Notes: a model not told the origin generated them from the letters alone. Shown: positions 36,292 through 62,032, numbered from the stretch's first letter. The stretch: DNA of 64,000 bases from Umezawaea beigongshangensis (GCF_016464305.1 NZ_JAEIOJ010000012.1:1-64000), one strand, 5' to 3'. Translations and numbers: made by a program.

Positions 36292-36308
36292 ACCCGTATG
36301 CTGCGGCC

Positions 36309-38813: not shown

Positions 38814-39243
38814 CCCGACCCGCCGTCCACCACGCCGTTCTGCGAGGCGGTCCCGCGCGCAGGCGTGCGTGCGGGCGGTGGTGGGACCGACTCGCTCCCG
38901 CCACCGCCCGGCGGTGACCCCTGACAGGGACGGTCCGGGCCGTGCACCGCTCCGCGCCCCCGGCGCCGTCGCCCACCTCGTCGACGGTGACGACCGCACC
39001 CCGCGCTCCGGGGACGCGCCGGAACGGAAGTCGCACCGCACGAGCTGTGCGGCTCCGCGCAGCGGACCGGCGGTGCGACGTCGGTGGAGCGGCGATCCTC
39101 CACCGCTCACAGTCCACTGTGGGGCTCCGCGCGCCGACGCCGGGGCGCGGAAACCGCGTCGTGCAACGGATTCGGCCGATCCGGTCGTGATCGGCATGAC
39201 CCAGATCACCCGGATCGAGCACTCCGTCCCCCGGTCGTGTCCG
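38814..39243. other. Intergenic region before the dhb genes, with terminator
   Basis: This gap of about 430 bases contains the hairpin at 38873-38909 and a second GC-rich inverted stretch near 39082-39105 (GTGGAG/CTCCAC). No reading frame has the codon pattern of its neighbours. The end at 39244 is the iron-box-like site. Confidence 0.45.
38873..38909 (+). terminator. GC-rich hairpin terminator
   Basis: GGGCGGTGG (38873-38881) pairs with CCACCGCCC (38901-38909); after one mismatch a further four bases (GGGA/TCCC) pair inside. It lies 60 bases after the small secreted protein gene. Confidence 0.6.
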
Positions 39244-39262
39244 ATAGCTTGGGCAAGCCTGA
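39244..39262. promoter_or_regulatory. Iron-box-like (IdeR/DmdR) operator
   Basis: ATAGCTTGGGCAAGCCTGA matches 13 of 19 positions of the actinobacterial iron-box consensus TTAGGTTAGGCTAACCTAA and has palindromic GCTTG/CAAGC arms. It ends 28 bases before the dhbA start codon, where a repressor site would act. This fits catechol-siderophore genes, but no other iron box was found for comparison. Confidence 0.5.
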
Positions 39263-39290
39263 ACAGCTTTCGGACGGCAGGAGGGCGTCG

Positions 39291-40082: not shown

Positions 40083-40302
40083 GCGATCAGAACTCCTCGT
40101 CTCGCAGGGGATGCGCCATCGGCGTCCTCTGTGGACAGACCGCGCCCGGAGCCGTGCGGCTGACGCCGGTGCTGGTCGGAAGCGGACTTCCAGGACGACC
40201 GCGTCGAGGTCCGCCTCACCTCGTTCGCGAGGCCGGGGGCGCGCGGAACTCGCGTCCTGCCGCGCACCCGCTGTCACCGTCCCGCCGAAGGGGAACCCGA
40301 CC

Positions 40303-45988: not shown

Positions 45989-46972
45989 GTGAAACCCCAG
46001 ATCAACACCCTCGTGGTGGGCGGCACCGGCGCGATGGGCGGCCGGGTCGTGCACCGGCTGCTGGCGCACCCCGCCAACGCGATCACCGTCCTCACCCGCG
46101 ACCCGGCCTCGGTCAGGGCCGTCGCCCTGCTGGAACGCGGCGGCGGCCGGGTCCGCCTCGTGCGCGGCGACGTGGACGACCCCGCAGCTCTGCGACGGGC
46201 CGTGTCCGGCGCGGACCGCGTCTTCTGCAACACGGACTTCTTCTCCACCGGCAGCGCGCTGGAGGAGCACCGGCAGGGCGTGGCGGTGCTCGAAGCGGCC
46301 AGGGTCGCCGGCGTGGACCGGTTCGTGTGGTCCTCGCTGGACGCCGTCGCGGCCCTGACGCACGGCCGGACCGTCGTGCCGCACTACGACGCCAAGGCGG
46401 CCGTCGCCGCGCACGTGCACCTCCAGCGGTCGGAGGAGGTGGTGCGCCGCGAGCAGGACGGCTGGTACACCCACCACGTCTCGATCCTCACCACCGCCCC
46501 GTACTTCGAGAACCTGTCCACCCGTCTGGCGCCGACGCCGGGCCGGCTGCCGGACGGCCGGCAGGGCCTCGTCCTGCACGCCCCGCTCGGCACCGGCCGG
46601 TACCCGATGATCGGCCTGGACGACATCGCCCGGTTCGCGGACCTGCTGTTCGAGCGCTGGCAGTCCTGGGGCGGCCGGGACCTCGCCGTCGTCGCCGAGG
46701 GCCTGACGGGCGAGCAGATCGCCGGAGCCTTCGAGCGGACGACGGGCGTCCCCACCGCCTACGTCCCGGTGCCGCTGGACGTGCTGCGGGACTCGGACCC
46801 GGACCACGGCCACGACTTCGCCGCGATGTTCCAGTTCTTCCAGGAGCGCGACCTGACCGCACGGGACCGCGACGTCTCCCTGCTGCGCGCCCTGCTCCCG
46901 GACCTGACGACCCTGGAGGAGTGGTTGCGCGCGACCGGTCCCGATCCGGAGCGGCGAATTCTACCGGGATGA
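45989..46972 (+). CDS. NmrA-like NAD(P)-binding oxidoreductase
   Basis: This 327-aa protein begins MKPQINTLVVGGTGAMGGRV with the GGTGAMGG nucleotide loop. Later blocks are FCNTDFFSTGSALEEHRQGV, AVLEAARVAGVDRFVWSSLD, GWYTHHVSILTTAPYFENLS and YPMIGLDDIARFADLLFERW. It belongs to the NmrA/HSCARG-type atypical SDRs. GTG 45989 lies seven bases after TAGCGT, so the mRNA may be leaderless. It is expected to be induced through the HxlR palindrome. Confidence 0.8.
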   Translation: MKPQINTLVVGGTGAMGGRVVHRLLAHPANAITVLTRDPASVRAVALLERGGGRVRLVRGDVDDPAALRRAVSGADRVFCNTDFFSTGSALEEHRQGVAVLEAARVAGVDRFVWSSLDAVAALTHGRTVVPHYDAKAAVAAHVHLQRSEEVVRREQDGWYTHHVSILTTAPYFENLSTRLAPTPGRLPDGRQGLVLHAPLGTGRYPMIGLDDIARFADLLFERWQSWGGRDLAVVAEGLTGEQIAGAFERTTGVPTAYVPVPLDVLRDSDPDHGHDFAAMFQFFQERDLTARDRDVSLLRALLPDLTTLEEWLRATGPDPERRILPG

Positions 46973-47159: not shown

Positions 47160-47435
47160 TTGCCCCGAATCCTTCACCAGCTCTCCCTCGACGGGAATTA
47201 TTCTCCACCGTTGCCGGGTGTGCGCGAGGCGTTGCGGGGTTCGCTGGACCAGGTCCACCTCACCCTCGACCCGCTGGTCGACGGTCTCGTGTCCGACCTG
47301 GCCGTCCTCCGAGACGTACCCCCTGCTGATCCGCACGCGCCGGCGGAACCGGTCGCCGTGCCGCGGGCCGCCGCCAGCTCCGCCGCGGGGGCCACGCCAC
47401 CGGAAGCGGTGCTCGCCGGGAGGGACGACCGGTGA
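47160..47435 (+). pseudogene. N-terminal relic of a HisC-like aminotransferase
   Basis: The frame reads LPRILHQLSLDGNYSPPLPG, VREALRGSLDQVHLTLDPLV and DGLVSDLAVL. It then degenerates into alanine-rich sequence before a stop at 47435. The first 50 residues align without gaps to the start of the fusion protein at 54910-56910 (IVHQLSLNENFAPPLPGVRD, DRSHLTLDALSDGLT). No PLP-binding half or catalytic lysine remains. It lies just upstream of the terpene cyclase gene, showing that a paralogous aminotransferase was once part of this cluster. Confidence 0.7.
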
Positions 47436-47556
47436 CCGGGGCGCCACCGCTCCCGGCGCGTTGACGCTCCTCGCCCGCGGTCCTCGCTCCACCGGTGCCG
47501 CGCCATCGCTCCCGCCACGAGTTCCCGGTCGCCGCGACCGGGCGAGAGGACTCCGC

Positions 47557-49233
47557 ATGACGTCGGTGCACGACGACCTCGACCCGTTCCCCGACGTGCT
47601 CTCGAAGGCGATCACCGGGGGCGCCGAGGCGCTGTTCCTCGCGCAGCGCCCCGACGGGGTGTTCGACTACAGCGAGGACAACCTGACCTCCACGCTGGGC
47701 ACGGTCGGCGCGCTGTCGGCGCTGCACTTCGCCGATCCGGACGGCAGCGCCGACCTCGTCGCGGCGGGCGTCGGGTGGCTGCGGCGCACCCAGAACGACG
47801 ACGGCGGCTGGGCGATGGTCCCCGGCCTGTCCAGCGAGGCCGGACCGACGGCCGTCGCCTCCGCCGTGCTCCACCTGGTCGACCGGGCGGGGAGCGCGGA
47901 GTCCGTGCGGGCCGGGCAGCGCTGGATGGACGACTTCGGCGGCCTGGACGCGATCCCGCACCCCGAGGTCGTCTCCTGGTGCCGGCAGTACTACGGCTTC
48001 GCCGGCTGGCTGGCCCCGGAGGACATGCGCCGCTTCCCGCTGGAGCTGGCGCTGTGGCCGGGGCTGTACCGGAGGGTGTTCGACCTGCGCGTGCCGATGG
48101 CCTTCGCGCTCGGCCTCGCGCAGGCCAGGCACAAGCCGCTCACCGCGGTGCAGCGCGCGCTGGCCCGCCTGGCGGAGCCGAACGCGCTGAAGGCGATCCG
48201 GCAGGTCTACGAGCACGAGGGCTCGACCGGGGCCTGGTGCGAGAACGCGTGGGTCACCGGTCTGGTCTGCACCGGCCTGGCCCGCGCCGGGCTGGCCCCG
48301 GACATGGTCGCCGCCGCCGTGGGGTGGTTCCGCCGGACGATGCACCCCGACGGCTGGTGGCAGACCGGTCCGCTCGACTCGGCCTGGACGATGTACGCCG
48401 TGCGCGGTCTCACCGAGGCGGGCTACGCCGACGACCCGCGGCTGACCGCGTCGACCCGGTTCTTCGTGCGCGTGCAGCAGCACCGTCCGTTCCTCGCGTT
48501 CGGCTGCCCGCCGGGCTACTGGGGCTGGGCGGGCACCGAGGGCTGGCCCTCGACCCTGGAGACGGGGGAGATCCTGTCCGTGCTGTCCAGGACGCCCGGC
48601 GACGAGCAGGCGAACGCCGTCGAGCGGGGCGTCGACTGGCTGACCCGCATGCAGGACACCCGCGGGTCCTGGGGGCTCTGCGTGCGCAACACCAGGGTGG
48701 CCAACAGCGGCCCCTGCCCGATGACGACCGTGCAGGCCGTCGACGCGCTGCTCGACGCGGGCGTTCCGGCCGACGACCGCCGCGTGCGCCGCGCGCTGAG
48801 CTGGCTCGCCGGGGCCCAGCTCCCCGACGGCGCCTTCGAGTCCGTGTGGTACCGGCACCACACCATGGGCACCGCCGCCGTGCTGGAGACCTTCTCCAGG
48901 GTCGGCAGGGCGGACGGGGAACCGGCCCGCCGGGCGGCGGCGTGGCTGGAGCGGACCCGGCTGCCCGACGGTTCGTGGGGCGACGGGGCCGGTGCGCCCG
49001 GCACGGTGGAGGAGACCGGCTGGGCGATCTCGGCCCTGCTGGCCGCCGGCACCGACCCGGCCGGGGTGCGGCCGGGGGTGGACTGGCTGCTGGAGCACCG
49101 CGACTCCGGCGGCGGGTGGCCGTCGGAGGCCGTCAACGAGTACGTGCGCCACGTCAGCCGGTACACCAACCCCGCTCTCGCGCAGGGGATGGCCCTGCGC
49201 GCGCTGGGCCGCTACCGGGAGGCGATCCGCTGA
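47557..49233 (+). CDS. Squalene-cyclase-like protein (class II terpene cyclase superfamily)
   Basis: This 558-aa protein begins MTSVHDDLDPFPDVLSKAIT. It contains repeated alpha-helical QW-like motifs: FLAQRPDGVFDYSEDN, TQNDDGGWAMVPG, MHPDGWWQTG, MQDTRGSWGLC, AQLPDGAFESVW and TRLPDGSWGDG. Each is followed by a helix of T-x-x-T-x-x-AL type (PGTVEETGWAISALLAA). This is the fold of squalene-hopene cyclases and prenyltransferase/squalene-oxidase repeat proteins. The canonical DXDD acid motif is not visible; the equivalent region reads GPLDSAWTMYAV. It is shorter than hopene cyclases. A cyclase acting on a small prenylated or epoxidised substrate is the best guess. Confidence 0.7.
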   Translation: MTSVHDDLDPFPDVLSKAITGGAEALFLAQRPDGVFDYSEDNLTSTLGTVGALSALHFADPDGSADLVAAGVGWLRRTQNDDGGWAMVPGLSSEAGPTAVASAVLHLVDRAGSAESVRAGQRWMDDFGGLDAIPHPEVVSWCRQYYGFAGWLAPEDMRRFPLELALWPGLYRRVFDLRVPMAFALGLAQARHKPLTAVQRALARLAEPNALKAIRQVYEHEGSTGAWCENAWVTGLVCTGLARAGLAPDMVAAAVGWFRRTMHPDGWWQTGPLDSAWTMYAVRGLTEAGYADDPRLTASTRFFVRVQQHRPFLAFGCPPGYWGWAGTEGWPSTLETGEILSVLSRTPGDEQANAVERGVDWLTRMQDTRGSWGLCVRNTRVANSGPCPMTTVQAVDALLDAGVPADDRRVRRALSWLAGAQLPDGAFESVWYRHHTMGTAAVLETFSRVGRADGEPARRAAAWLERTRLPDGSWGDGAGAPGTVEETGWAISALLAAGTDPAGVRPGVDWLLEHRDSGGGWPSEAVNEYVRHVSRYTNPALAQGMALRALGRYREAIR

Positions 49234-49288
49234 CCGGGTGCCAGGAGTCGACGAGTTCTGACCGGACGTCCCAGGAACGGAGAACCTC

Positions 49289-50497
49289 ATGACGGGTGCG
49301 ACACGGGAGGATTCCTTCACCGAGGACTACTGGCGCGATCCGCACGGAACCCTCGCCAGGACGCGGGAGACCTGCCCGGTCCGCCAGGTCGACTTCGAGA
49401 GCGGCCCGACCTGGCTGGTCACCCGCTACGCCGACGTGCGCGCGGGGCTCACCGACGCACGACTGGCCAAGGACTGGCGGTCCACCCTGCCCGCGGAGGA
49501 ACGAGCCGCGGCGCCTCCCGGACTGCCCGCCCCGATGTCGCACATGCTGACCTCGCTCGACCCGCCGGAGCACACCCGGCTGCGGAGCCTGGTCGCCCAG
49601 GCGTTCACCGCTCGCCGGGTGGCCGCGCTGCGCCCGCGCGTGGAAGCCGTCGCCGCCGAGCTGCTCGACGCGCTGCCCGAGGACGAGCCGATCGACCTCG
49701 TGGCGCGCTTCGCGATCGTCCTCCCCATGGTGGTGATCTCCGAGCTGCTCGGCGTTCCCGAGATCGAGCGCGACGAGTTCGCCCGCCTGTCCACGGTGCT
49801 CATCGACGAGTGCCCCGAGGCCGAGCTCGTGCGGGCCTCCACGGAGATGGCCACCTACCTGGAGGGACTGGTCGCGGCCAAGCGCGCGGCGCCCGACGAC
49901 GCGCTGCTCTCCGCACTGATCACCGCGTCCGACGAGGGGGACCGGCTCTCCGACCTGGAGATCGTGGCGATGGCCATGCTGCTGCTCATGGCGGGGCACG
50001 AGACCACCGCCGTCTTCATCACCAACAGCGTCCGGGCGCTGCTGGACGACCCGTCGTCGCGCGAGCGCCTGGCGTCGCCGCAGTCGGTCCCGCCGCTGAT
50101 CGAGGAGCTGCTGCGCTGGCTCTCCCCGGCCATCAACGCCTCGCTGCGCTTCGCCGCGGAGGACCTGGAGATCGGCGGGGTCGCCATCGCCAGGGGCGAG
50201 TCGGTGATGCTGTCGACGGGAGCCGCGAACCGCGACCCCGCGCGGTACGACGCACCGGCCGAGCTGGACCCCGACCGCAACACCGCCGGTCACCTGGCCT
50301 TCGGCCACGGCATCCACCGGTGCCTGGGCGCGGCCCTGGTCCGCCTGGAGGGCGAGGTCGCGCTGGCCGCCCTGTTCACCCGCTTCCCGCGACTGCGAGC
50401 GGCGGCCGATCCCGCCGAGCTGACGTTCCGCCACAGCGTCCACGTGCACGCCCCGCGCACGTTCCCGGTCGTGCTCGGGCCCCGTGCGGGAACCTGA
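49289..50497 (+). CDS. Cytochrome P450
   Basis: This 402-aa class I bacterial P450 has I-helix MLLLMAGHETTAVFITNSVR, ExxR in LIEELLRWLSPAINASLRFA, the C-helix WxxxR equivalent HTRLRSLVAQAFTARRV and haem loop LAFGHGIHRCLGAALVRLEG (Cys ligand). There is no membrane anchor, as expected for soluble actinobacterial P450s. It follows the cyclase by 55 bases with GGAGAA before ATG 49289, so the two form an operon. A tailoring oxidation of the cyclised product is likely. Redox partners are not in the window. Confidence 0.9.
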   Translation: MTGATREDSFTEDYWRDPHGTLARTRETCPVRQVDFESGPTWLVTRYADVRAGLTDARLAKDWRSTLPAEERAAAPPGLPAPMSHMLTSLDPPEHTRLRSLVAQAFTARRVAALRPRVEAVAAELLDALPEDEPIDLVARFAIVLPMVVISELLGVPEIERDEFARLSTVLIDECPEAELVRASTEMATYLEGLVAAKRAAPDDALLSALITASDEGDRLSDLEIVAMAMLLLMAGHETTAVFITNSVRALLDDPSSRERLASPQSVPPLIEELLRWLSPAINASLRFAAEDLEIGGVAIARGESVMLSTGAANRDPARYDAPAELDPDRNTAGHLAFGHGIHRCLGAALVRLEGEVALAALFTRFPRLRAAADPAELTFRHSVHVHAPRTFPVVLGPRAGT

Positions 50498-50520
50498 CGC
50501 GAACGCCGCGCGCGCACCTC

Positions 50521-50566
50521 GGCCGGGCCCCGCCACCTCCTCGTCGAGGGGTGGCGGGGCCCGGCC
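50521..50566. terminator. Bidirectional terminator between P450 and dioxygenase
   Basis: Seventeen-base perfect arms (50521-50537 and 50550-50566) with extra pairing (CCTC/GAGG) in the 12-base centre form a very stable hairpin between the converging stop codons of the P450 and TauD-like genes. Confidence 0.8.
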
Positions 50567-50581
50567 CGCACGTGCCGCGCC

Positions 50582-51415
50582 TCAGTCCTTCACGGCCGTC
50601 GCGGACATTCCCGGCTCCTGGTACTTCGCCCAGCGCGGCTCCGCGCCGCGCGGCTCGTCGCCCATCACCGTCACGCGCTGGCCCACGCGGCGCCCCACGT
50701 AGTCGTTCACCGCGTAGTGTTGGGTCGCCCGGTTGTCCCACATCGCCACCGCGCCGGGAACCCAGCGGTAGCGGCAGGTGCGCTGGGGGCTCTCCGACAC
50801 GGTGAACAGGTGCTCCAGCAGCGCGTCGCTCTCGCCCTTGCTGAGCTGGAGGATGCGCCGGGTGAACATGCGGTTCACGTACAGGCTCTTGCGGCCGGTC
50901 ACCGGGTGCGTCCGGATCACCGGGTGCTCCACCTCGCCGCGGAACGAGCCGTTCGGGTGGACGAACAGGTGCTGCGCCGTGGTGCCCTCCAGCATGTCGC
51001 GCACCGGCTCCGACAGCGCCTCGCAGGCGAGGTACTGGTTGCTCCACATCGTGTCGCCGCCCGCCTCTGGCGTCACCGTGATCTGCAGGACGGAGGCGAT
51101 CGGCGGACTCTGGACGAAGGTCACGTCGGTGTGCCACACGTCGGCGCGCGCGCCCTGGTCCGAGTCCAGCACGACGATCTTGTCGTGGCCGTCGAGCTTC
51201 GGCAGGAAGGGGTGGACCTCCAGCTCCCCGAAGCGGCTGCCGAACGCCTCGTGCGCCTCCGGGGTCAGGCCGCCGGCGTCCGGGAAGAACAGCACCAGGT
51301 GGCGCATCAGCAGGTCGTGGATCTCCGTGAACCGTTCGTCGTCGATCGCGCCGAGATCGACGCCACGCACCTCCGCGCCGAGCGAACCGGAGATCGGGCG
51401 AACCTGGAAGGTCAT
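50582..51415 (-). CDS. TauD/TfdA-family Fe(II)/2-oxoglutarate dioxygenase
   Basis: This 277-aa protein begins MTFQVRPISGSLGAEVRGVD. It holds the metal facial triad in WHTDVTFVQSPPIASVLQIT (His, Asp) and WDNRATQHYAVNDY (distal His), with a following conserved Arg region (RRVGQRVTVMGDEPRG) for 2-oxoglutarate. The family hydroxylates, desaturates or rearranges small molecules. It is divergent from the methyltransferase gene across 171 bases. Its place among terpenoid genes suggests a tailoring role; a sulfonate or aryloxyalkanoate substrate is less likely here. Confidence 0.85.
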   Translation of the reverse strand: MTFQVRPISGSLGAEVRGVDLGAIDDERFTEIHDLLMRHLVLFFPDAGGLTPEAHEAFGSRFGELEVHPFLPKLDGHDKIVVLDSDQGARADVWHTDVTFVQSPPIASVLQITVTPEAGGDTMWSNQYLACEALSEPVRDMLEGTTAQHLFVHPNGSFRGEVEHPVIRTHPVTGRKSLYVNRMFTRRILQLSKGESDALLEHLFTVSESPQRTCRYRWVPGAVAMWDNRATQHYAVNDYVGRRVGQRVTVMGDEPRGAEPRWAKYQEPGMSATAVKD

Positions 51416-51586
51416 GTTTTCCCTGCTTTCTTTCGATACGCGTCGTTCAATTCCGCGCGCGTGTTCCACGGCGCGGTACTGATGATTCTCAGGGCGCTGT
51501 TCGGTGCTCTTGACCCCGCTCGCCCGCCGGTGTCAGGATCGTGGTGGACGAATTTTTTCTCCCGCTGACGAGGGGAATTCATCGGA

Positions 51587-52579
51587 ATGACCGCACAGGA
51601 CGAGCTGGCCAAGATGATCGACCTCGCGACGCCGTTCGCGGTCAGGGCGGCCGTCACCCTGCACCTGCCCGAACTGATCGACGGCGGCACCGCCCGGCTC
51701 GACGCCCTGGCCGGCGCCGCGGGTGCCGATCCCGACTCGCTGCGCAGGCTGCTGAACCACCTCACCTCCATCGGGTTCCTGGCCGAGCCGCAGCCCGGCA
51801 CCTACGCGCTGACCGACGTGTCGCGCGTCCTGCTCGGCGACGACCACGGCGCAGCCCGCCGCTGGCTCGACATCGAGGGCCCCGGCACGAAGATGGACCT
51901 CGCCTACGCGGGCATGGCCCACTCGGTGCGCACCGGCGAGTCCGCCTACGCCACCGTGCACGGCGTCCCGTTCTGGGACGACTACGGAGCCGACGAGGAG
52001 CTGCGGCTGTTCTTCGGCCGGGTCATGGCCGTCCACGCGTGGCAGACCGGACCGGTCGTGGCCACCGAGTGCGACTGGTCGTCCACCCGGCGGGTGCTCG
52101 ACGTCGGCGGCGGCACCGGCGCGCTGCTGATCGAGGTGCTCGGGGCCAACCCGCACCTGACCGGCGCCGTGCTGGACCTGCCCCCGGTCGAGCCGGAGGC
52201 CACCACCGCGCTGAAGGAGGCCGGGCTGGAGGACCGCGCCGCCTTCGTGCCCGGCAGCTTCTTCGACCCGCTGCCCACCGGCTACGACACCTACGTGATC
52301 TCCCGCGTCCTCACCGACTGGAGCGACGAGGACGCGCTGCGGATCATGACCCGCGCCGCCGAGGTCGTCGGCACCGGCCGCCTGCTGGTCGTGGAGGTGC
52401 TGGCGGGTCGGGAGCACGCGAAGAACAACTCGTCGTTCGACCTCCAGTCGCTGACCCTGCTCGGCGGCCGGGAGCGCACGGAGGAGGACTTCACGGCCCT
52501 GGCGCGACGCGCCGGGTTCTCCACCGCCACCACACGCCGCTGGGACGGCGGCCTGCTCGTCGTGGAGTGCGGGCTCTAG
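51587..52579 (+). CDS. SAM-dependent O-methyltransferase (acetylserotonin OMT-like)
   Basis: This 330-aa protein has the N-terminal winged-helix dimerisation domain (ATPFAVRAAVTLHLPELIDG, DSLRRLLNHLTSIGFLAE) found in plant and actinobacterial small-molecule O-methyltransferases. The catalytic domain follows, with RRVLDVGGGTGALLIEVLG, AVLDLPPVEPEATTALKEAG, VISRVLTDWSDEDALRIMTR and RLLVVEVLAGREHAKNNSSF. The usual catalytic HDW is TDW here. It probably methylates a phenolic or enolic hydroxyl of the cluster product. It is convergent with the flavoprotein gene, the stops eight bases apart. Confidence 0.85.
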   Translation: MTAQDELAKMIDLATPFAVRAAVTLHLPELIDGGTARLDALAGAAGADPDSLRRLLNHLTSIGFLAEPQPGTYALTDVSRVLLGDDHGAARRWLDIEGPGTKMDLAYAGMAHSVRTGESAYATVHGVPFWDDYGADEELRLFFGRVMAVHAWQTGPVVATECDWSSTRRVLDVGGGTGALLIEVLGANPHLTGAVLDLPPVEPEATTALKEAGLEDRAAFVPGSFFDPLPTGYDTYVISRVLTDWSDEDALRIMTRAAEVVGTGRLLVVEVLAGREHAKNNSSFDLQSLTLLGGRERTEEDFTALARRAGFSTATTRRWDGGLLVVECGL

Positions 52580-52587
52580 CGACCGGG

Positions 52588-53853
52588 TCACCGGGACCGC
52601 GCCCAGCTCGGCAGCTGCCCGCCTCTCGGGTCGGGCAGCACGCCGAGCTGGTGCAGGCGGTCCAGCGGACTCAGCGAGTGCTGTCCCAGTCCGGCCATGT
52701 TGTGCATGATCGTGTGGCGCAGCCGCCGGTTGCGTCCGGTCTTGCGCAGCGCGCGACGGCCCAGCACCCGGCCGAACGGCGACAGGTCGCTGATCATGCG
52801 GGTCGCGTTGTGGCTGGTCGTCCCGACGGCGATCAGCTCGGGACGGCGCCCGGTGCTCCACGCGCGCAGCAGCGGTGCCAGCAGTTCGGGCGCCAGGTCG
52901 CCGTCGAGCTCGCGCACCCGCGCGGCGAGGCTCGCCGCGTCCAGGATCGAGCTGTTCATGCCCTGACCGGCGGCCGGGTGCACGGAGTGCGCGCTCTCCC
53001 CGATCAGCGCCAGCCCGTCAGCGGCCAGCGACGTGGTCAGCGACCGCCCCACCGGCAGGACCTGCCGCGCCGACCAGGCGCGCGCGACGTCCTCGCGCAG
53101 CGGGGCGAGCGCCGGCACGTCGCGCACCAGGCCGTCGATCCACCCCCCGGCGGCGCTCGCGTCCACGCCCCGCAGCTCGTCCGGCTCGACCTGCACGTAC
53201 AGCCGCGCCCGCTCGCCGGGCAGCGAGTACCGCATCGCCAGACCGCGCGAGGTGACGTAGGTGGACACGTCGTCGCCCAGCGGCTGGCCGGTCAGCTCGA
53301 AGGCGGCCAGCCTGTGCGGGTAGTCGGCGCGCTCGACCTCGATCCCGGCGTTGCGCCGCAACCGCGACGACAGCCCGTCGGCCGCCACGACCAGTCCCGC
53401 CGTCAGGTCACCGCCGTCCGTGCGCACACCGGTCGTCCGGCCGTGCTCGTCGCGCACCAGTTCCCGCACCAGCACCCCGCGCCGCAGCTCCACCGATGCG
53501 GGCAGGGTGCGGGCCAGCGCCGCCAGGATCACGTGGTAGTCGTGCACCAGCAACCACGGCCGCCCGGTGTCCAGCGTCCGGTAGTCCAGCGCCAGCAGCG
53601 CCGCGCCGTGCGGGTCGCGCACCGTCAGCCCCGACAGGCGCAACGCGCCGTCCGCGGCCAGCTCGTCGGCCACGCCCCAGTCCGCGAGCACGTCCGTCGC
53701 GCCGGGTTGCAGCAGCTCGCCCTTGGGAACGGGCCTGATCTCGCGCTGCTTGTCCAGCACCAGCACGCGCAGGCCGAGTCCGCCCAGCGCGTGCGCCGCG
53801 GCGAGTCCGGCGACCCCGGCCCCGCTCACCAGCACGTCCACGTCGGTGCTCAC
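52588..53853 (-). CDS. FAD-dependent monooxygenase (UbiH/PHBH type)
   Basis: This 421-aa protein has the dinucleotide-binding motif VDVLVSGAGVAGLAAAHALG, the DG motif LVVAADGLSSRLRRNAG and the GD-type motif DGLALIGESAHSVHPAAGQG MNSSILDAASLAAR. In the last, GE replaces the common GD. The C-terminal 70 residues (MISDLSPFGRVLGRRAL, RHTIMHNMAGLGQHSLSPLD) resemble UbiH/Coq6 and squalene-epoxidase-like enzymes. In meroterpenoid pathways such enzymes epoxidise the prenyl chain to trigger cyclisation, or hydroxylate the aromatic ring. GTG 53853 is preceded by GGAGGTG. It follows UbiA by 70 bases. Confidence 0.85.
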   Translation of the reverse strand: MSTDVDVLVSGAGVAGLAAAHALGGLGLRVLVLDKQREIRPVPKGELLQPGATDVLADWGVADELAADGALRLSGLTVRDPHGAALLALDYRTLDTGRPWLLVHDYHVILAALARTLPASVELRRGVLVRELVRDEHGRTTGVRTDGGDLTAGLVVAADGLSSRLRRNAGIEVERADYPHRLAAFELTGQPLGDDVSTYVTSRGLAMRYSLPGERARLYVQVEPDELRGVDASAAGGWIDGLVRDVPALAPLREDVARAWSARQVLPVGRSLTTSLAADGLALIGESAHSVHPAAGQGMNSSILDAASLAARVRELDGDLAPELLAPLLRAWSTGRRPELIAVGTTSHNATRMISDLSPFGRVLGRRALRKTGRNRRLRHTIMHNMAGLGQHSLSPLDRLHQLGVLPDPRGGQLPSWARSR

Positions 53854-53923
53854 GCGCCACCTCCACTTCGGACGGAGACACGCGGTGGCGGTGGGACGGT
53901 TCCGTCCGGGGTGGACACCGGGG

Positions 53924-54907
53924 TCATGAGGCGGTCGCCTTCCGCAGTTCGGCCGGGGGGATCTCGTGGCGGGTGCGCATGGCGTTCTGGGTGATCACGC
54001 TGAACGCGAGGACCGGCAGGAGCACCGCCACCGCGAACGGGGCGCCCGCACCGGCCGCCGTCACCGCGCCCGCCAGCACGAGCCGTTCCGCCACCAGCAC
54101 CTCGTGGGCGCGCAGCGCCGACTCGCGGGTGATGTCGTCGCCCTGGGTCAGCAGACCGCCGAACACCCACGCGCCGATCGCGGTGGCCGCCAGCAGCAGC
54201 ACCAGGTAGGACGTGCGGTCGGGCAGCGGCGCCAGCGCGGACGCCACGGCCACGAGCAGGGCCAGGCCGTAGAGGGTCTGCGCGAGGCGCGCGCCGTAGG
54301 CGACGCCCCGCTGCACCGGCACCGACCGGTACCCGCCCGCCTCGTCGCCCTCCACGTCCCGCACCGCGCCGACGAGGTTGGACGCCGCGTCGTGCAGCAG
54401 GAACACCACCGCGAACGGCAGGGCCGTCCACGGATCGCCACCGGGCACGCAGGTGGCGCCGGCCAGCACGGCCAGCGACGTCAGCGCGCCGCGCACCAGG
54501 TTGCCGGAGATGCCGCGCCCCTTGTACAGGCGGCTGTAGGCGGCGATCCCGACCACGCCGAGCACCAGCAGCACCAGCACCCGCCAGTCCACGGCCAGCG
54601 CCAGCGCCGCCGCACCGACCTCGCTCACCACCGCCGAGAGCAGCGCGGCGCGCGGGCTGAGCCGACCGGACGGGATGGGCCGCTGAGGTTTGTCGATCGC
54701 GTCCAGCTCGCGGTCGAACCAGTCGCCCAGGTAGTGCCCTCCCAGCCAGACCAGCACCGGGATCAGCACGGCGGCGGCCAGGTGCAGCGGGCCGGGGTCG
54801 CCACCGGCGACGGACGCACCGGCCAGGCCGACGACACCGGGATAGGTCAACGTGTACGGGCGCCACGTCTGGACGTGCGCCTCGGCGGTGCGCCGCCAGT
54901 TCGCCAC
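53924..54907 (-). CDS. UbiA-family membrane prenyltransferase
   Basis: This 327-aa polytopic protein has both aspartate motifs: GDWFDRELDAIDKPQRPIPS (NDxxDxxxD type with Gly in place of Asn) and VRDVEGDEAGGYRSVPVQRG (DxxxD). It has about eight hydrophobic helices, for example LHLAAAVLIPVLVWLGGHYL and VLVLLVLGVVGIAAY. It transfers a prenyl group from the diphosphate to an acceptor, aromatic in most homologues. GTG 54907 begins two bases after the stop of the prenyl-diphosphate synthase fusion, strongly implying substrate hand-over. The acceptor is unknown. Confidence 0.9.
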   Translation of the reverse strand: MANWRRTAEAHVQTWRPYTLTYPGVVGLAGASVAGGDPGPLHLAAAVLIPVLVWLGGHYLGDWFDRELDAIDKPQRPIPSGRLSPRAALLSAVVSEVGAAALALAVDWRVLVLLVLGVVGIAAYSRLYKGRGISGNLVRGALTSLAVLAGATCVPGGDPWTALPFAVVFLLHDAASNLVGAVRDVEGDEAGGYRSVPVQRGVAYGARLAQTLYGLALLVAVASALAPLPDRTSYLVLLLAATAIGAWVFGGLLTQGDDITRESALRAHEVLVAERLVLAGAVTAAGAGAPFAVAVLLPVLAFSVITQNAMRTRHEIPPAELRKATAS

Positions 54908-54909
54908 GG

Positions 54910-56910
54910 CTACCGGCTCCGGTCGATCGACGTGTTCGCGACCTCGGCGAGCATCGCGGTGTGCTCGTTGGGCGGCAGCCCGGCCAGGCATGCCTTCGCG
55001 GCGGTCACCTCGGCCTCCGCGTGCTCCACCGCCCGCTTCAGCGCGCCCGTCTCGTCGAGCACGTCCCGCAGGGCCGTGAACGCCTCCTCCGGCGGCAGCT
55101 CACCGCTCAGCGCGCTCACCACCCGTGCGCGCTGCTCCGGCGTGCCCGTCTCGTGCGCCAGCAGCACCGGGTAGGTGGGCCGCAGGTTGCGCAGGTCGCT
55201 CAGCCCGGACTTGCCGGTGATCGCCGGATCGGACAGGTAGGGCAGCAGGTCGTCGTACATCTGGAAAGCGAGGCCCAGGTGCTCGGCGTACCGGCTCACC
55301 GCGTCGACCACGGCCGGTTCCGCGCCACCGAGCACCGCACCGGCCCGGCAGGCGCCGCGGAACAGCGCGCCGGTCTTGAGCGCCATCACCGTCAGGTAGT
55401 CCGCCAGCGGGTGCGCGGGGTCGGAGGCCATCGCGCCCTCCAGCGCCTGGCCGCGGCACACGTCCACGCCCGCGTCGGAGATCGCCCGCACCGCCTCCAG
55501 CGCCGCCGCTTCCGGCACACCGCGCTCGACGCAGGCCGCCACCGAGCCGAACGTCCGCATCATCAGCGCGTCACCGGTGGCGATGGCGTCGGACGTGCCG
55601 TAGCGGTGCTGCACCGACGGCTGGCCGCGGCGCATCTCGTCGCCGTCGATCACGTCGTCGTGCACCAGCGACCCGACGTGCAGGTACTCCACCGCGAGCG
55701 CGGCGGGCACGACCTGCTCCACGTCGCCGCCCACCGCGCCCGCCGCCGCGGCGAGCAGCAGCGGACGCAGCAGCTTGCCCGGTGTGAGCAGCGCGTAGCG
55801 GGAGATGCCGAGCACGGGGTCGGTGTGCTCGGGCCACTCGGCGTGCAGCGCCGCGCGCAGCCGGGTCACGAGTGCCTCGGCCGCGGGGGAGAAGCCCGTG
55901 CGGGTGTACTCGGTGACCAGCGCGATCACCGCGTCGTTGGCCTCCCGCGTGCCCACGGTCACCCGCACGCCCAGCCCGCCCACGTCGCGGACCTCGACCC
56001 CGTGCTCGGCCAGGAACTCCACCAGCGGCGGACCGTCGGCGCCCAGCGGGAGCCACAGGTAGTTGCCCGCGCTCGGCGGCACCTCCAGCCCGCGGTTCAC
56101 CAGCGCGGCCCGCAGCCGGTCCCGCTCCACGCAGACCGCCTCGCACTGCGCGCGCATCTGCTCCTCGGCGGCCAGCGCGGCGGTGGCCGCGGCCTGCGCG
56201 ACGGTGCTGACGCGGAAGAACGGCGTGGTGCCGCGCAGCGGCGTGACGACGGACGCCGCCGCCACCAGGTAGCCCACGCGCAGGCCCAGCAGCCCGTGCG
56301 ACTTGGAGAACGTGCGGACCACCACGACACGGGGGTCCTCGCGGTAGAGGGCCAGCGCGTCGGCGATCTCGGCCCGGTCGGCGAACTCGCGGTACGCCTC
56401 GTCCACGACCACCAGCACGTCCGGCGGCAGCGCGTCGAGGAACCCCCGCACCTCGGCGTGGCCAAGCACCGCGCCGGTGGGGTTGTTCGGGTTGCACAGC
56501 AGGACGGCCCTGGTGCGCGGCGTCACCGCGGCGGCCATCGCCTCCAGGTCCGTGCCGTAGCCGTCGACCAGCGGCACCGCGACCGGCGTGGCGCCGCTGT
56601 TGCGCGCGAGCGGTCCGTACCCCCAGAACGACAGCGCGGCGTGCACGACCTCGGTGCCCGGTCCGGCGATGCCGTGGAGCAGCTGCTGGAGCACCGCGCC
56701 GGACCCGGCCCCGACCAGCACGTCGGAGGCCGGCACCCCGAGGCGCTCCGCGATCGTGGCGGTGAGCCCGTCGGAGAGGGCGTCCAGGGTCAGGTGGGAC
56801 CGATCGGCGGTGCTGATCACCGCGTCCCGGACTCCGGGCAGCGGTGGGGCGAAGTTCTCGTTGAGAGAAAGCTGGTGGACGATGTTCGGCACGCTGAGGT
56901 CCCCGTTCAC
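54910..56910 (-). CDS. Fusion of HisC-like aminotransferase and polyprenyl diphosphate synthase
   Basis: This is a 666-aa chain. Residues 8-338 form a class I/II PLP aminotransferase: LLCNPNNPTGAVLG, VVVDEAYREFADRAEIADAL and the lysine K203 in RTFSKSHGLLGLRVGYLVAA, closest to histidinol-phosphate/aromatic aminotransferases. Residues about 343-666 form a trans-polyprenyl synthase: GKLLRPLLLAAAAGAVGG, first Asp motif VHDDVIDGDEMRRGQPSVQH (418-422) and second FQMYDDLLPYLSDPAITGKS. Both halves keep their catalytic residues and full length. The join has no stop or frameshift. The protein heads the minus-strand operon with UbiA and the flavoprotein. Joining amino transfer and chain elongation in one polypeptide is unusual. 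Confidence 0.85.
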   Translation of the reverse strand: MNGDLSVPNIVHQLSLNENFAPPLPGVRDAVISTADRSHLTLDALSDGLTATIAERLGVPASDVLVGAGSGAVLQQLLHGIAGPGTEVVHAALSFWGYGPLARNSGATPVAVPLVDGYGTDLEAMAAAVTPRTRAVLLCNPNNPTGAVLGHAEVRGFLDALPPDVLVVVDEAYREFADRAEIADALALYREDPRVVVVRTFSKSHGLLGLRVGYLVAAASVVTPLRGTTPFFRVSTVAQAAATAALAAEEQMRAQCEAVCVERDRLRAALVNRGLEVPPSAGNYLWLPLGADGPPLVEFLAEHGVEVRDVGGLGVRVTVGTREANDAVIALVTEYTRTGFSPAAEALVTRLRAALHAEWPEHTDPVLGISRYALLTPGKLLRPLLLAAAAGAVGGDVEQVVPAALAVEYLHVGSLVHDDVIDGDEMRRGQPSVQHRYGTSDAIATGDALMMRTFGSVAACVERGVPEAAALEAVRAISDAGVDVCRGQALEGAMASDPAHPLADYLTVMALKTGALFRGACRAGAVLGGAEPAVVDAVSRYAEHLGLAFQMYDDLLPYLSDPAITGKSGLSDLRNLRPTYPVLLAHETGTPEQRARVVSALSGELPPEEAFTALRDVLDETGALKRAVEHAEAEVTAAKACLAGLPPNEHTAMLAEVANTSIDRSR

Positions 56911-57444
56911 CGGTCGAGCCTGTCAGGAATCGCTGAATCTGCTCCGAGCAAGCTTTACCGAATCAGCGACGTTCAGGGAAGGGGGGTGCCAAAAGATTGC
57001 CGGAAACATGTCCAGAACGGGCAAGCTTCGGGCATCGTTGCTGGTAGGAACGGTTTACCTGTCGTCAACTCCGCGTCTCGGGCGCGTAACGGCTGTCGTG
57101 CTACCGCGATCGGTCCTCGGTCACACGTCCGGAGCAGCGTTCACCTGGACGGCTGACGGCCATTCGTGTGAAACCATTTTCGAGAAGATTTTGACGTCGC
57201 GAATAAATACTGTGAAGCATTTCATGTCACTGCTCTGGGAATCTGGTGTAGAACCTGCGCTCGCGCGCTCGTCCCGCACTCGGACGGACCAGCGCGGCCG
57301 TCGCGCCGAACGAGACGGCGTCGTCACCGCGCGTGTTCGGGGCAGGGGTGCGCGCCACCCGAACGCACCCCGACCACAACCCGTCCGCCCCGCTAGAAAA
57401 GGTGTGGACCACCTGCGGTCCGGAGCATCGCGGAGGAGTACCGG
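56911..57444. other. Divergent promoter region of the cluster
   Basis: This 534-base gap lies between the fusion gene (minus) and the MFS gene (plus). It is markedly richer in A/T than its surroundings, especially 57155-57240 (CGAATAAATACTG, GTGAAGCATTTCATG). A TTGACG hexamer at about 57191 could serve as a -35. No regulator gene or clear palindrome is present. No reading frame here has genome-like codon use. Confidence 0.45.
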
Positions 57445-58752
57445 ATGAGCGTCGCCGCCCCGCCCGCCGACCCCACCACCACGCCGACGCCGGTCGGCAG
57501 GCTGTCCGCCGCGCTGCTGGCGTCGCAGACCGGCCTGTACATCGCCCTGCTGACCCCGCTGCAACTGCTCCTCGCCCTCCAGTTGACCAGGATCTCCGGC
57601 GGCACGGCCGCCACCTCCGCGTTCAGCCTCGTCACCGGGGTCGGGGCGATCGTGGCCCTGGTGTTCACGCCGATCGCCGGGCGGATCAGCGACCTCACCA
57701 CGTTCCGCCTCGGCCGCCGCCGCACCGGAATCCTCGTCGGCTCGGTCACCGGCGCGGTGGTGCTCGTCCTGCTCGGCTCGGCCACCACCGTGTGGCAGGT
57801 CGTCCTGCTGTGGTGCGTCGCCAAGGCCGCCCTGAGCTTCCAGCACGCGTCCACGACCGCCACCGTCGCGGACCAGGTCCCGCCGCACCGCCGCGGCATC
57901 GTCTCCGGAACGCTCGGTCTCGGCATCGCGCTCAGTCCGCTGCTCGGCATCGCGCTCGTCAACGCCCTTCCCGCCGGGTCCGCGACGCAGTGGTACGCCA
58001 TCGCGGGCACGACCGTCGTCGGCGGCGGTCTCGCGGTGCTGCTGATCCGGGAGGGACGACCGGTCCGCCGGGAGCGGCCCGCGCTCGGTCTCGGCGGCGT
58101 GCTGCGCACGTTCTGGCTGGACCCGCGCCGCCACCCCGCCTTCGGCTGGGCGTGGCTGGTGCGCTTCCTCATCACCGCTGCCTACGCCAGCGGCACCTAC
58201 CTCGCGTTCTTCCTCATCCAGCGCTTCGGCGCCGGTCCCGCCGAGGTCGGCGGGCTGGTGTTCGCGATGACGGTGGTGAACACCGTCTGCCTGGTCACCG
58301 CGAGCCTCGCCGCTGGCCACTTCTCCGACCGGCTCGCGCGGCAGAAGCCGTTCGTGGTCGCCGCCGGACTGCTCGCCGCCGCGTCGATGTGCACGATGGC
58401 GTTCGCGCCGTCGATCCTCGCGGTGTTCGTGATCCACGGCGTCGTGGGCATCGGCATCGGGGTGTTCTTGTCGGTGGACCTCGCGATGTGCGTGCGGGTG
58501 CTGCCCCACGACGAGGACGCGGCCAAGGACCTCGCCATCGTCAACATCGCCAACACCCTGCCGCAGTCGCTGGTGCCGCTGGTGGCGCCACTGCTGCTCG
58601 GGATCGGCGGGTTCACCGCGCTGTTCGGCTTCCTCGGGCTGCTCGGCGTCGTCGGCGCGATCGCCGTGCGCCGGGTGCCGGAGATCGGCCAGGAGGGAGG
58701 AGCGCCCGGCGTCGCACCGCTCACGCGCCTCCCCGCCGAACCGTCGAGCTGA
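57445..58752 (+). CDS. MFS transporter
   Basis: This 435-aa protein with about 12 membrane segments begins MSVAAPPADPTTTPTPVGRL. It shows the MFS motif A-like loops GRISDLTTFRLGRRRTGILV and AAGHFSDRLARQKPFVVAAG, and helices such as LVTGVGAIVALVFTPIAG and VIHGVVGIGIGVFLSVDLAM. It resembles sugar/glycoside or drug MFS members of actinomycetes; the substrate cannot be read from sequence. GGAGGAG lies seven bases before the ATG. As the outer gene of the terpenoid cluster it is the likely exporter. Confidence 0.8.
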   Translation: MSVAAPPADPTTTPTPVGRLSAALLASQTGLYIALLTPLQLLLALQLTRISGGTAATSAFSLVTGVGAIVALVFTPIAGRISDLTTFRLGRRRTGILVGSVTGAVVLVLLGSATTVWQVVLLWCVAKAALSFQHASTTATVADQVPPHRRGIVSGTLGLGIALSPLLGIALVNALPAGSATQWYAIAGTTVVGGGLAVLLIREGRPVRRERPALGLGGVLRTFWLDPRRHPAFGWAWLVRFLITAAYASGTYLAFFLIQRFGAGPAEVGGLVFAMTVVNTVCLVTASLAAGHFSDRLARQKPFVVAAGLLAAASMCTMAFAPSILAVFVIHGVVGIGIGVFLSVDLAMCVRVLPHDEDAAKDLAIVNIANTLPQSLVPLVAPLLLGIGGFTALFGFLGLLGVVGAIAVRRVPEIGQEGGAPGVAPLTRLPAEPSS

Positions 58753-58880: not shown

Positions 58881-59035
58881 GTGATCCGAGTCACTTAATC
58901 TTCGTCACGTTTGGGTGAACTTGTAACTACTCAGAGTTCCCGCTTCTGTTTCCGCCACCGCGTGCACAACCTCCAACCGTGCGACGACGACGTCGGACAC
59001 GCGCGATCGTCGCGGCCCTCCCCGGGAGTGTGGAC

Positions 59036-62032
59036 ATGAGATGGACTACGCGACGACCACGTGCGTCCGCGTTCGGTCTGCTGGCAGCGGCACTGCTGCT
59101 GAGCGGCGTACCGGGCCCCGCGCTCGCCGATCCGAGGAGTGATGCCCCGCCGCCCCAGGAGCCGGGCGTCACGCTGCGGGTGTTCGACGTGCAGGTGTCG
59201 CTGGACCGGCTGTGCGTGCTCAAGCCGGCTCAGACGCCCAACGTCGACAAGCTCATGCCGACCGTGGACTGGACGTCGGCCGACGACTTCGGCTTCGCCG
59301 ACCGCTTCGTGGCCGAGGTCTCCGGCAACGTCGGCATCACCCTGGCGGGCAGCTACGCGTTCCGGCTGCTCAGCGACGACGGTTCGCGGCTGTCGATCGA
59401 CGGCACCGTGGTCGTCGACCACGACGGCGTGCACGGCACGCAGCCGAAGGACGGCACGGTCACCCTGTCCGCCGGTCCCCACGCCCTGCTGATCGAGCAC
59501 TTCGAGCGCGACGGCGGGCAGCAGCTGACCCTCCAGTGGAAGCCGCCGGGCGCGGCGGACTTCTCGGTCGTGCCGAACTCCGCGCTCAGCACGGACAGCG
59601 GGGTCGTCCGGGTCACCGCTCCCGGCCGCAAGGAGTGCGCGACGGGTGCCGACTCACCCGGCGACGGCCTGCCCCTGAACGCCGTCCACCCCGACTTCAC
59701 CCTGACCGACCTGCGTCCCGCGGGCTTCCAGCCCAGGGTCAGCGCGATGGACTGGTTCCCCGACGGCCGCCTGGCCATCGCCACCTGGGACGGCAAGAGC
59801 ACCGATACCGGTGAGCTCTGGGTGCTGGGCAACGTCACCGGAGCCACCTCGCCGAGTCGGGTCACCACCAAGCGGATCGCGACGAACCTGCGCGAGCCGA
59901 TGGGCCTGAAGGTGCTCGACGGCATGATCTACGTGTCGCAGAAGCACGAGTTGACCGAACTGGCCGACACGAACGGCGACGACGTGATCGACCGGTCCCG
60001 CACGGTCGCGACGTGGCCCTACGGCGGCAACTTCCACGAGTTCGCGTTCGGCCTGCTGTACCGGGACGGGTTCTTCTACCTCAACCTGTCCGTCTCGATC
60101 AACCTCGGCGGTGCGACCACCGACCCGCAGCCCGCCGCCAACCGCGGCACGACCGTGAAGGTCGACCGCGCCACCGGACGGGTCAGCTACGTGGCTGGCG
60201 GCCTGCGCACGCCGAACGGGATCGGCTGGGGTCCGGAGGGGGGCGTGTTCGTCAACGACAACCAGGGCGGCTGGCTCCCCGCGTCGAAGCTGGTGCACGT
60301 CAAGCAGGACCGGTTCTTCAACCACTACACCAATCCGGCCGGTCCGTTCGACGCGAACCCGATCGCACAACCCGTGCTGTGGTTGCCGCAGAACGAGATC
60401 GCGAACTCGCCGAGCACGCCGGTGCAGCTCACCCAGGGCCTCTACGCCGGACAGATGATCTTCGGCGACGTCACCTACGGCGGTCTCCAGCGCGCGTTCC
60501 TGGAGAAGGTGAACGGCGAGTACCAGGGCGCGGTGTTCCGCATGACCCAGGGGCTCGAAGCGGGCGTCAACCGCACGACCGTCGGCCCGGACGGCGCCAT
60601 CTACATCGGCGGCATCGGGGACGACGGCAACTGGGGCCAGGACGGCAAGCTCAAGCACGGCCTGCAGAAGCTCGCGCCCAACGGCGGCCGGACGTTCGAC
60701 CTGCTGGCCGTGCGCGCGGTCGCGGGCGGGTTCGAGCTCGAGTACACGCAGCCGGTCTCGGCGGAGACCGCGGCGGGGCTCGCCGGCCGCTACCGGGCCG
60801 AGCAGTGGCGGTACGCGCCCACGCCCGCGTACGGCGGGCCCAAGGTCGACCAGGAGAACCTGCGGGTCGCCTCGGCGACGCCCTCCGCGGACGGCCGGAA
60901 GGTCACGCTCAAGCTCGACGGCCTGAAGGCCGGCCGGGTGGTGCACCTGCGCTCGCCGCGCCCGTTCACGTCGAGCGCCGGTGTGCCGCTGTGGAACACC
61001 GAGGCCTGGTACACGCTCAACAACCTCGTCGGCAGCGCCCCGTCGGCCACCCAGTCCTTCGAGGCGGAGAGCGCGGCGCTGTCCGGCGGCGCGCGCGTCA
61101 ACACCGACCACCTCGGCTACTCCGGCGCGGGTTTCGTCGACAACTACGGCGCTCAGGGGGCGAGCACCGCCTTCGCCGTGCACGCGGCGAAGGCGGGCTC
61201 GCACGACGTCGGTCTGCGCTACAGCAACGGACCGAACCCGTCCGCCGGGACCAAGACCGTCAGCGTCCACGTCAACGGGGCGAAGGTCAGACAGGTCGCC
61301 CTGGCCGACACCGGCAACTGGGACACCTGGGCCACGCACACCGAGGCGCTGACGCTGCGGGCCGGGGCGAACACCATCGCCTACCGGGTGGACAGCGGGG
61401 ACGTCGGGCACGTCAACCTGGACCAGTTGACCGTCACCCCCGCCTCGCGCATCACGCTCTACAGCGGTGGCGGAACGGAGAACTGGCGCAACGCCGACGG
61501 CAGCGCGCCCTCCTGGCCGGTGGCGAACGGGTCGATGGAGGCGCTGGGCGGCGACATCCGCAGCAGGAGGGGGTTCGGAGACTTCAGGCTGCACCTGGAG
61601 TTCTGGCTGCCGAACCTGCCGTCCTCCGTCACCGGGCAGCAGCGCGCCAACAGCGGCGTGTACCTCCAGGACCGCTACGAGCTCCAGATCCTGGACAGCT
61701 ACGGCAAACAACCGCTCGCAGCCGACGACGCCGCGAGCATCTACCTGAAGAGAGCCGCCTCGCCCAACGCGGCCACCGCGCCGCAGACGTGGCAGACCTA
61801 CGACGTCACGTTCCGGGCGGCCCGCTTCGACAGCGCGGGCGTGAAGACCGAGAACGCCCGCGTCACCGTGGTGTGGAACGGGGTCACGGTCCACCGGGAC
61901 CTCGCGATCGACGGACCGACCGGCAACGGCGCTCCCGAGACGCCGACGGCGGGGCCGTTCCGCCTCCAGGACCACGGAGATCCCGGTGAGAACGTGAGGT
62001 TCCGCAACATCTGGGTCGAACCACTGGGATAG
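59036..62032 (+). CDS. Large secreted multidomain protein (PA14, propeller, CBM, DUF1080-like)
   Basis: This 998-aa protein has the signal peptide MRWTTRRPRASAFGLLAAAL, cleaved near PALADP. Residues about 50-180 resemble a PA14 domain (GSYAFRLLSDDGSRLSIDGT, SAGPHALLIEHFERDGGQQL). Residues about 220-560 form a sorbosone/glucose-dehydrogenase-like propeller (SAMDWFPDGRLAIATWDGKS, GLRTPNGIGWGPEGGVFVND, TTVGPDGAIYIGGIGDDGNW). Residues about 675-800 form a CBM6/35-like module (SFEAESAALSGGARVNTDHL, GHVNLDQLTVTP). The last 190 residues resemble DUF1080/3-keto-glycoside hydrolase (FGDFRLHLEFWLPN, GVYLQDRYELQILDSYGKQP). It probably binds and processes polysaccharide outside the cell. Confidence 0.8.
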   Translation: MRWTTRRPRASAFGLLAAALLLSGVPGPALADPRSDAPPPQEPGVTLRVFDVQVSLDRLCVLKPAQTPNVDKLMPTVDWTSADDFGFADRFVAEVSGNVGITLAGSYAFRLLSDDGSRLSIDGTVVVDHDGVHGTQPKDGTVTLSAGPHALLIEHFERDGGQQLTLQWKPPGAADFSVVPNSALSTDSGVVRVTAPGRKECATGADSPGDGLPLNAVHPDFTLTDLRPAGFQPRVSAMDWFPDGRLAIATWDGKSTDTGELWVLGNVTGATSPSRVTTKRIATNLREPMGLKVLDGMIYVSQKHELTELADTNGDDVIDRSRTVATWPYGGNFHEFAFGLLYRDGFFYLNLSVSINLGGATTDPQPAANRGTTVKVDRATGRVSYVAGGLRTPNGIGWGPEGGVFVNDNQGGWLPASKLVHVKQDRFFNHYTNPAGPFDANPIAQPVLWLPQNEIANSPSTPVQLTQGLYAGQMIFGDVTYGGLQRAFLEKVNGEYQGAVFRMTQGLEAGVNRTTVGPDGAIYIGGIGDDGNWGQDGKLKHGLQKLAPNGGRTFDLLAVRAVAGGFELEYTQPVSAETAAGLAGRYRAEQWRYAPTPAYGGPKVDQENLRVASATPSADGRKVTLKLDGLKAGRVVHLRSPRPFTSSAGVPLWNTEAWYTLNNLVGSAPSATQSFEAESAALSGGARVNTDHLGYSGAGFVDNYGAQGASTAFAVHAAKAGSHDVGLRYSNGPNPSAGTKTVSVHVNGAKVRQVALADTGNWDTWATHTEALTLRAGANTIAYRVDSGDVGHVNLDQLTVTPASRITLYSGGGTENWRNADGSAPSWPVANGSMEALGGDIRSRRGFGDFRLHLEFWLPNLPSSVTGQQRANSGVYLQDRYELQILDSYGKQPLAADDAASIYLKRAASPNAATAPQTWQTYDVTFRAARFDSAGVKTENARVTVVWNGVTVHRDLAIDGPTGNGAPETPTAGPFRLQDHGDPGENVRFRNIWVEPLG

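Follow-up and report, generated by a model that had tools for sequence, protein, structure and literature searches.

A probable sugar-free brasilicardin-type terpenoid gene cluster in Umezawaea beigongshangensis

A 64,000-nucleotide stretch of DNA from Umezawaea beigongshangensis (the whole of which is referred to here as the window) contains a group of terpenoid genes that includes an aminotransferase fused to a prenyl synthase, which raises the question of what type of pathway these genes encode. The initial annotation proposed a terpenoid cluster for prenylation, epoxidation, cyclisation, oxidation, methylation, and export, with a gene combination that was not recognized from a known pathway. 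The results described below support the proposed functions. The combination, on the other hand, can be placed: its core shares both homology and gene order with the core of a phenalinolactone-type cluster, and the full set agrees with published descriptions of the brasilicardin core and its methoxylation genes. The window is likely to contain an unglycosylated brasilicardin-type aglycone cluster, the predicted product of which is a methoxylated terpenyl amino acid.

Gene content and conservation of the cluster

Genes were called by codon position, and the proteins were scanned against Pfam and NCBIfam. The region 47,557-58,752 was found to encode a cyclase, a P450, a TauD dioxygenase, an O-methyltransferase, a UbiH-like flavoprotein, a UbiA protein, the aminotransferase-prenyl-synthase fusion, and an MFS exporter; thus, codon-position bias and curated Pfam/NCBIfam matches bore out all eight enzyme and exporter genes that had been named previously. 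The features are as follows.

47160..47387, plus strand: remnant of a second, stand-alone aminotransferase, ∼76 codons followed by frame decay (three-frame translation)
47557..49233, plus strand: atypical squalene-hopene-cyclase (SHC)-like type II terpene cyclase (CYC), 558 aa (Pfam SQHop_cyclase, PDB alignment, 13-sequence alignment)
49289..50497, plus strand: cytochrome P450, 402 aa (Pfam/NCBIfam)
50582..51469, minus strand: TauD-type Fe(II)/2-oxoglutarate dioxygenase, PlaO1-like (best solved relative, PlaO1)
51470..51586, no strand: divergent intergenic region between TauD (minus) and OMT (plus) (orientation kept in relatives)
51587..52579, plus strand: O-methyltransferase (OMT), Methyltransf_2 (Pfam)
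52588..53853, minus strand: UbiH-like FAD monooxygenase (FMO) (Pfam/NCBIfam, solved relatives)
53924..54907, minus strand: UbiA prenyltransferase (Pfam; motifs GDxxDRxLD and RDVxGD)
54910..56910, minus strand: fusion of an N-terminal HisC/aromatic-type aminotransferase (AT) and a C-terminal trans-polyprenyl diphosphate synthase (PS) (Pfam/NCBIfam, motifs)
57445..58752, plus strand: MFS exporter, divergent from the fusion (Pfam)

The cyclase gene had been taken to begin near 47160. Its open reading frame opens at 47092, and the start was placed instead at ATG 47557, on the basis of the conserved part of the protein and a ribosome-binding site (GAGAGG). The segment 47160-47387 is a decayed fragment of a free-standing aminotransferase that aligns to residues 7-82 of the fusion with 45% identity; the loci of the nearest clade (L028-L034) carry a full-length, intact free aminotransferase at this place. 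The MFS proteins in the clusters of that clade are 60-65% identical to the exporter and are located on the opposite flank. The TauD protein probably starts at the ATG near 51415. A longer UbiA reading frame opens at 54991, and the start is probably GTG 54907, which has a ribosome-binding site (GGAG) and is 2 nt past the TAG of the fusion; because of this spacing, the two proteins are probably translated together.

The cyclase lacks the DXDD motif of canonical type II and squalene-hopene cyclases and has S-T-L-E335-T at the aligned place (alignment to squalene-hopene cyclase 3sqc). E335, T336, and E338 were invariant in the 13-sequence alignment, and E/D followed by T/S occupied the DXDD place in all relatives, with the exception of the long-branched G1160. 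UbiA keeps both Asp motifs, and its nearest solved protein is an archaeal DGGGP synthase. The FMO is a probable prenyl-chain epoxidase. The PLP site of the fused aminotransferase is intact (NPNNPTG, DEAY, SKSHG with the PLP Lys, LRVGY, and GVRV), and the synthase half of the fusion carries DDVID and DDLLP.

When 249 genomes from the family Pseudonocardiaceae, to which the window belongs, were queried with the fusion protein, 33 matched at E≤1e-80, and the loci of 20 of these were fetched. AT, PS, UbiA, cyclase, FMO, TauD, and OMT were close together in every one of the 20 loci, and a P450 with 74-87% identity was present as well in 14. The association is therefore not due to chance. Named matches include Umezawaea, Saccharothrix, Actinokineospora, Saccharopolyspora spinosa, two Streptomyces species, and one unclassified actinobacterium; the fusion itself was also found in the Umezawaea, Saccharothrix, and Actinokineospora loci. 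The divergent TauD-OMT pair was kept in 24 of 25 relatives, with 117-288 bp between matches. Two neighbors, an NmrA protein (45989-46972) and a PA14/CBM protein (58979-62032), were not common to the fetched family loci. Searches of plasmids returned distant matches only.

The UbiA, UbiH-like, and SHC-like labels resemble those of quinone and hopanoid enzymes, as would be expected if these genes were chance neighbors or served primary metabolism. This explanation is highly improbable, given the sporadic yet collinear conservation in 20/20 fetched family loci and in Streptomyces, and given that further prenyl synthase paralogues are present elsewhere in the genome. As judged from its recurrence in relatives and its match to known core layouts, the gene set is not new.

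Ancestry of the core and the proposed pathway

The best solved relative of the TauD protein is PlaO1 (7qtd) of phenalinolactone biosynthesis (E 2e-98; 55% identity). A search with the PlaO1 sequence as the query led to a Streptomyces cluster whose dioxygenase is 98.9% identical to it. The order of its genes, TauD-FMO-CYC-UbiA, is that of the window, and the proteins are 56, 50, 39, and 49% identical, respectively, to those of the window. The same contig also carries deoxysugar, pyrrole-acyl, MEP-pathway, prenyl synthase, and FAA-hydrolase genes; all of these labels except FAA hydrolase come from our reading of the sequences. The deoxysugar, pyrrole-acyl, MEP, and prenyl synthase genes are as expected for phenalinolactone, and the cluster is referred to here as phenalinolactone-type. 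Sequence similarity and gene order indicate that the core of the window shares ancestry with this TauD-FMO-CYC-UbiA core.

A pathway of the phenalinolactone or tiancilactone type, in which the side chain would end as a gamma-lactone (butenolide) and the aminotransferase would act elsewhere or in a side branch, is consistent with the PlaO1-like dioxygenase and the collinear core. However, no aminotransferase and no O-methyltransferase of the kind present in the window were found in the Streptomyces phenalinolactone-type cluster, and the clusters without AT and OMT were consistently the lactone-type ones. Furthermore, all window-type clusters examined have retained an aminotransferase, with copies lost reciprocally (see below). 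A lactone product is thus quite improbable. Gene content was strongly clustered on the cyclase tree (3 changes versus a shuffled mean of 11.2), and clusters of intermediate content, with AT present and OMT absent, exist. Whether a cluster carries AT and OMT may predict whether its side chain is of the methoxy-amino-acid or the lactone kind.

Several features of the brasilicardin type were found together in the window: UbiA, prenyl synthase, atypical cyclase, and FAD epoxidase; an aminotransferase with an intact PLP site; and a dioxygenase-methyltransferase pair. The catalytic steps, along with their order, the chain length, the product, and the C3 acceptor, are inferred. The synthase half would form an all-trans prenyl diphosphate of C20 or longer, which UbiA would couple, at carbon, to a small C3 alpha-keto acid (a pyruvate-like enol). 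The FAD enzyme would epoxidize the distal double bond, and the DXDD-less cyclase would protonate the epoxide to yield a fused polycyclic skeleton that the P450 could then oxidize. The PlaO1/Bra0-like dioxygenase would hydroxylate the side-chain carbon adjoining the C3 unit, and the O-methyltransferase would cap the hydroxyl to give a methoxy group. The aminotransferase would turn the alpha-keto acid into an alpha-amino acid, and the MFS protein would export the methoxylated terpenyl amino acid.

The cluster has no gene for an aromatic acceptor, as would be expected of phenalinolactone- and brasilicardin-type pathways, in which, judging from product structures, the prenyl acceptor appears to be a C3 keto or amino acid unit and not an aromatic ring. 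A 2,3-dihydroxybenzoate module at 39-41.5 kb was considered as a source of the acceptor and rejected, because unrelated genes lie in between and its isochorismate synthase matched no relative's cluster locus.

The order of transamination and prenylation might also be reversed. In a route of the zigralone type, the aminotransferase would act first on Trp, Phe, or Tyr, and UbiA would prenylate the resulting aryl-pyruvate to give an aromatic meroterpenoid. The closest match to the aminotransferase half of the fusion is 4r2n, a putative phenylalanine aminotransferase, and the OMT resembles aromatic O-methyltransferases; the aromatic-amino-acid-like family of the aminotransferase fits such a route and to that extent weighs against the aglycone reading. 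However, clusters without any aminotransferase also use the homologous UbiA-CYC-FMO-TauD core, so the acceptor need not be derived from this enzyme. No other zig gene (TPP enzyme, Pyr4-like cyclase, or DUF6875) was annotated in the window cluster, and its cyclase is SHC-like. We regard the aryl-pyruvate route as unlikely.

Because UbiA, cyclase, FMO, and TauD serve in clusters without an aminotransferase too, the acceptor is probably not supplied by the aminotransferase. A C3 keto acid is the simplest common acceptor; after prenylation it would be aminated by the aminotransferase, in keeping with the amino acid found in brasilicardin. At least one intact aminotransferase was present in every locus examined, though either copy may decay, and amination therefore seems to be needed. 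Two further observations count against a brasilicardin-type aglycone. The P450 has only ∼36% identity to that of the probable brasilicardin-type cluster G1043 (described below), and the residue at FARM -5 of the synthase is Gly in the window and Ala in G1043. C20 is not fixed by this position, and a product chain of C20 or longer is possible.

Probable merger, pruning, and cassette exchange

The fused aminotransferases formed one clade in the aminotransferase tree, and the free aminotransferase of the nearest relatives came from a different lineage and was not a local duplicate. The genes for the free aminotransferase, cyclase, and P450 adjoin each other, and L040/045/046/047 formed the sister group in the trees of all three proteins. 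In the PS-UbiA-FMO-TauD-OMT tree, the window clade was apart from four Saccharopolyspora loci (L039/041/042/054), whereas in the cyclase tree these loci were nested inside the window clade (12-row set, 100/98). The Saccharopolyspora rows fell within the same 12 rows in the P450 tree, in which the inner order was not resolved, so that nesting is clear for the cyclase alone. The cyclase and P450 of these loci are 80-86% identical to those of the window, compared to 47-69% for the remaining proteins. Given the tree conflicts and the contrast in identity, the cluster seems to have formed when two lineages merged and to have undergone cassette exchange afterwards. The fusion clade appears to have arisen by merger of two cluster lineages, which left it with two aminotransferases, and the cyclase, with the P450, appears to have been exchanged with Saccharopolyspora. 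Each of these findings appears to be new.

The two aminotransferases have been pruned reciprocally. The free copy is intact in L031, in which the PLP lysine of the fused domain is lost (SK to SQ); in L033-L034, in which the fused domain is wrecked; and in L032, in which only the first part of the fused domain is recognizable. In the window, the fused aminotransferase was kept and the free one decayed to the remnant described above. Three loci, those of Umezawaea and its closest kin (L028-L030), keep both. This reciprocal loss of duplicated enzymes shows the pruning of two merged clusters and provides a natural experiment on pathway evolution.

A broader and more speculative possibility is that Pseudonocardiaceae harbor a widespread family of unglycosylated terpenyl amino acids, possibly with skeletons larger than C20, encoded by mosaic clusters in which exchange of the cyclase-P450 cassette alters the skeleton, the amino-acid module is retained, and the donor synthase and the aminotransferase form one polypeptide.

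Comparison with known systems

The phenalinolactone (pla) and tiancilactone clusters of Streptomyces are like the window in TauD (PlaO1), FMO, SHC-like atypical type II cyclase, and UbiA and in the order of these genes. Unlike the window, pla-type clusters are without an aminotransferase and O-methyltransferase of this kind and end in a gamma-lactone, whereas the window has both of these genes and lacks the deoxysugar, pyrrole, and FAA-hydrolase genes of the phenalinolactone-type cluster. The zigralone (zig) cluster of Micromonospora zingiberis shares the trio of aminotransferase, polyprenyl synthase, and UbiA. It differs in its Pyr4-like membrane cyclase, TPP enzyme, P450 epoxidase, DUF6875 protein, and indole acceptor, in place of which the window has an SHC-like cyclase, FMO, and TauD. 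No description of the composition of the atolypene cluster was found in the literature search for comparison.

A terpene cluster that is weakly brasilicardin-like has been reported in Pseudonocardia ant symbionts (PMC5183585). This cluster (cluster Q of Pseudonocardia Ps2) comes from the same family as the window; the brasilicardin-like type had therefore been glimpsed earlier in Pseudonocardiaceae.

In brasilicardin biosynthesis, bra1-bra6 build the core, a tricyclic diterpene linked directly to an amino acid side chain; the methoxy group comes from bra0 (a dioxygenase gene divergent from bra1) and bra11; and 3-hydroxybenzoate and rhamnose are presumably added via bra7-bra10 (PMC7837296, PMC12185567). 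Nocardia arthritidis keeps 9/13 bra genes without rearrangement (PMC12153302). In G1043, one genome in a 150-member genus, TauD is divergent from AT-PS-UbiA-CYC-FMO-P450, which is followed by a PapA-like acyltransferase, a glycosyltransferase, and OMT. The block from AT to P450 has six genes, the same number as bra1-bra6, and this order fits the retention reported for N. arthritidis (PMC12153302). The host of G1043 is probably Nocardia, and its cluster is probably brasilicardin-type, a link made by gene order and published description, not by alignment of Bra proteins. The window proteins have only 36-59% identity to those of G1043.

Neither the window cluster nor the adjacent DNA was found to contain a rhamnosyl transferase, genes for formation or attachment of 3-hydroxybenzoate, or a SARP regulator. 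The immunosuppressive activity of brasilicardin seems to depend critically on its methoxy group (PMC12185567). Brasilicardin is hard to supply, and related sugar-free clusters in non-Nocardia hosts offer new scaffolds and enzymes.

Compared by description with the brasilicardin A cluster (bra0-bra12; Nocardia terpenica, MIBiG BGC0000632), the window has eight enzyme types that would fill the bra0-bra6 and bra11 roles. Layout and published description make TauD the probable counterpart of Bra0 and OMT that of Bra11. The window differs from the brasilicardin cluster in that aminotransferase and synthase are fused, the cyclase-P450 arm is apart from the synthase-UbiA arm, and it has its own MFS exporter. 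The cluster very probably makes a cyclic terpene joined to an amino acid by a known type of pathway, of which this sugar-free version is new.

Degenerate aminotransferase domains in related clusters

In three relatives of the window cluster, the prenyl synthase still carries a degenerate aminotransferase domain as an in-frame fusion:

L031:14612-15616, degenerate fused aminotransferase domain
L033:3800-4800, degenerate fused aminotransferase domain
L034:3800-4820, degenerate fused aminotransferase domain

Within these domains the PLP lysine has been lost or the domain shortened, and an intact free aminotransferase is kept beside each of them in the same cluster.

Divergent and reduced clusters

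A very divergent UbiA-prenyl synthase-cyclase-FMO cluster (FMO, UbiH-like FAD monooxygenase) in relative G1160 (L129-L130), which forms a long branch in the cyclase tree, lacks TauD, aminotransferase, and O-methyltransferase. The Streptomyces griseoaurantiacus cluster (L089) retains aminotransferase, prenyl synthase, UbiA, FMO, and TauD, with the cyclase displaced and no O-methyltransferase within the stretch; it is possibly a natural demethyl variant.

Other features of the window

1684-6894, NACHT-domain protein (1,736 aa)
10615-10698, tRNA-Leu(gag)
22284-25700, PAS-GAF-SpoIIE-HATPase-STAS protein (1,138 aa)
36234-41502, TetR regulator, thioesterase, 2,3-dihydro-2,3-dihydroxybenzoate dehydrogenase, and DhbC-like isochorismate synthase
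58979-62032, multidomain protein (1,017 aa) adjoining the cluster: PA14, CBM35/CBM6, 3-keto-disaccharide hydrolase

The 1,017-aa protein is not common to the window and the relatives examined. Positions 36234-41502 are a catechol siderophore module, whose dehydrogenase scores above the NCBIfam cut-off; no NRPS for it was identified among the genes examined. The 1,138-aa chain combines phosphatase, anti-sigma kinase, and antagonist domains. Positions 1-10700, which have lower G+C (0.67-0.71 versus about 0.75) and hold the NACHT-domain protein and the tRNA-Leu gene, may be an integrated element adjoining that tRNA.
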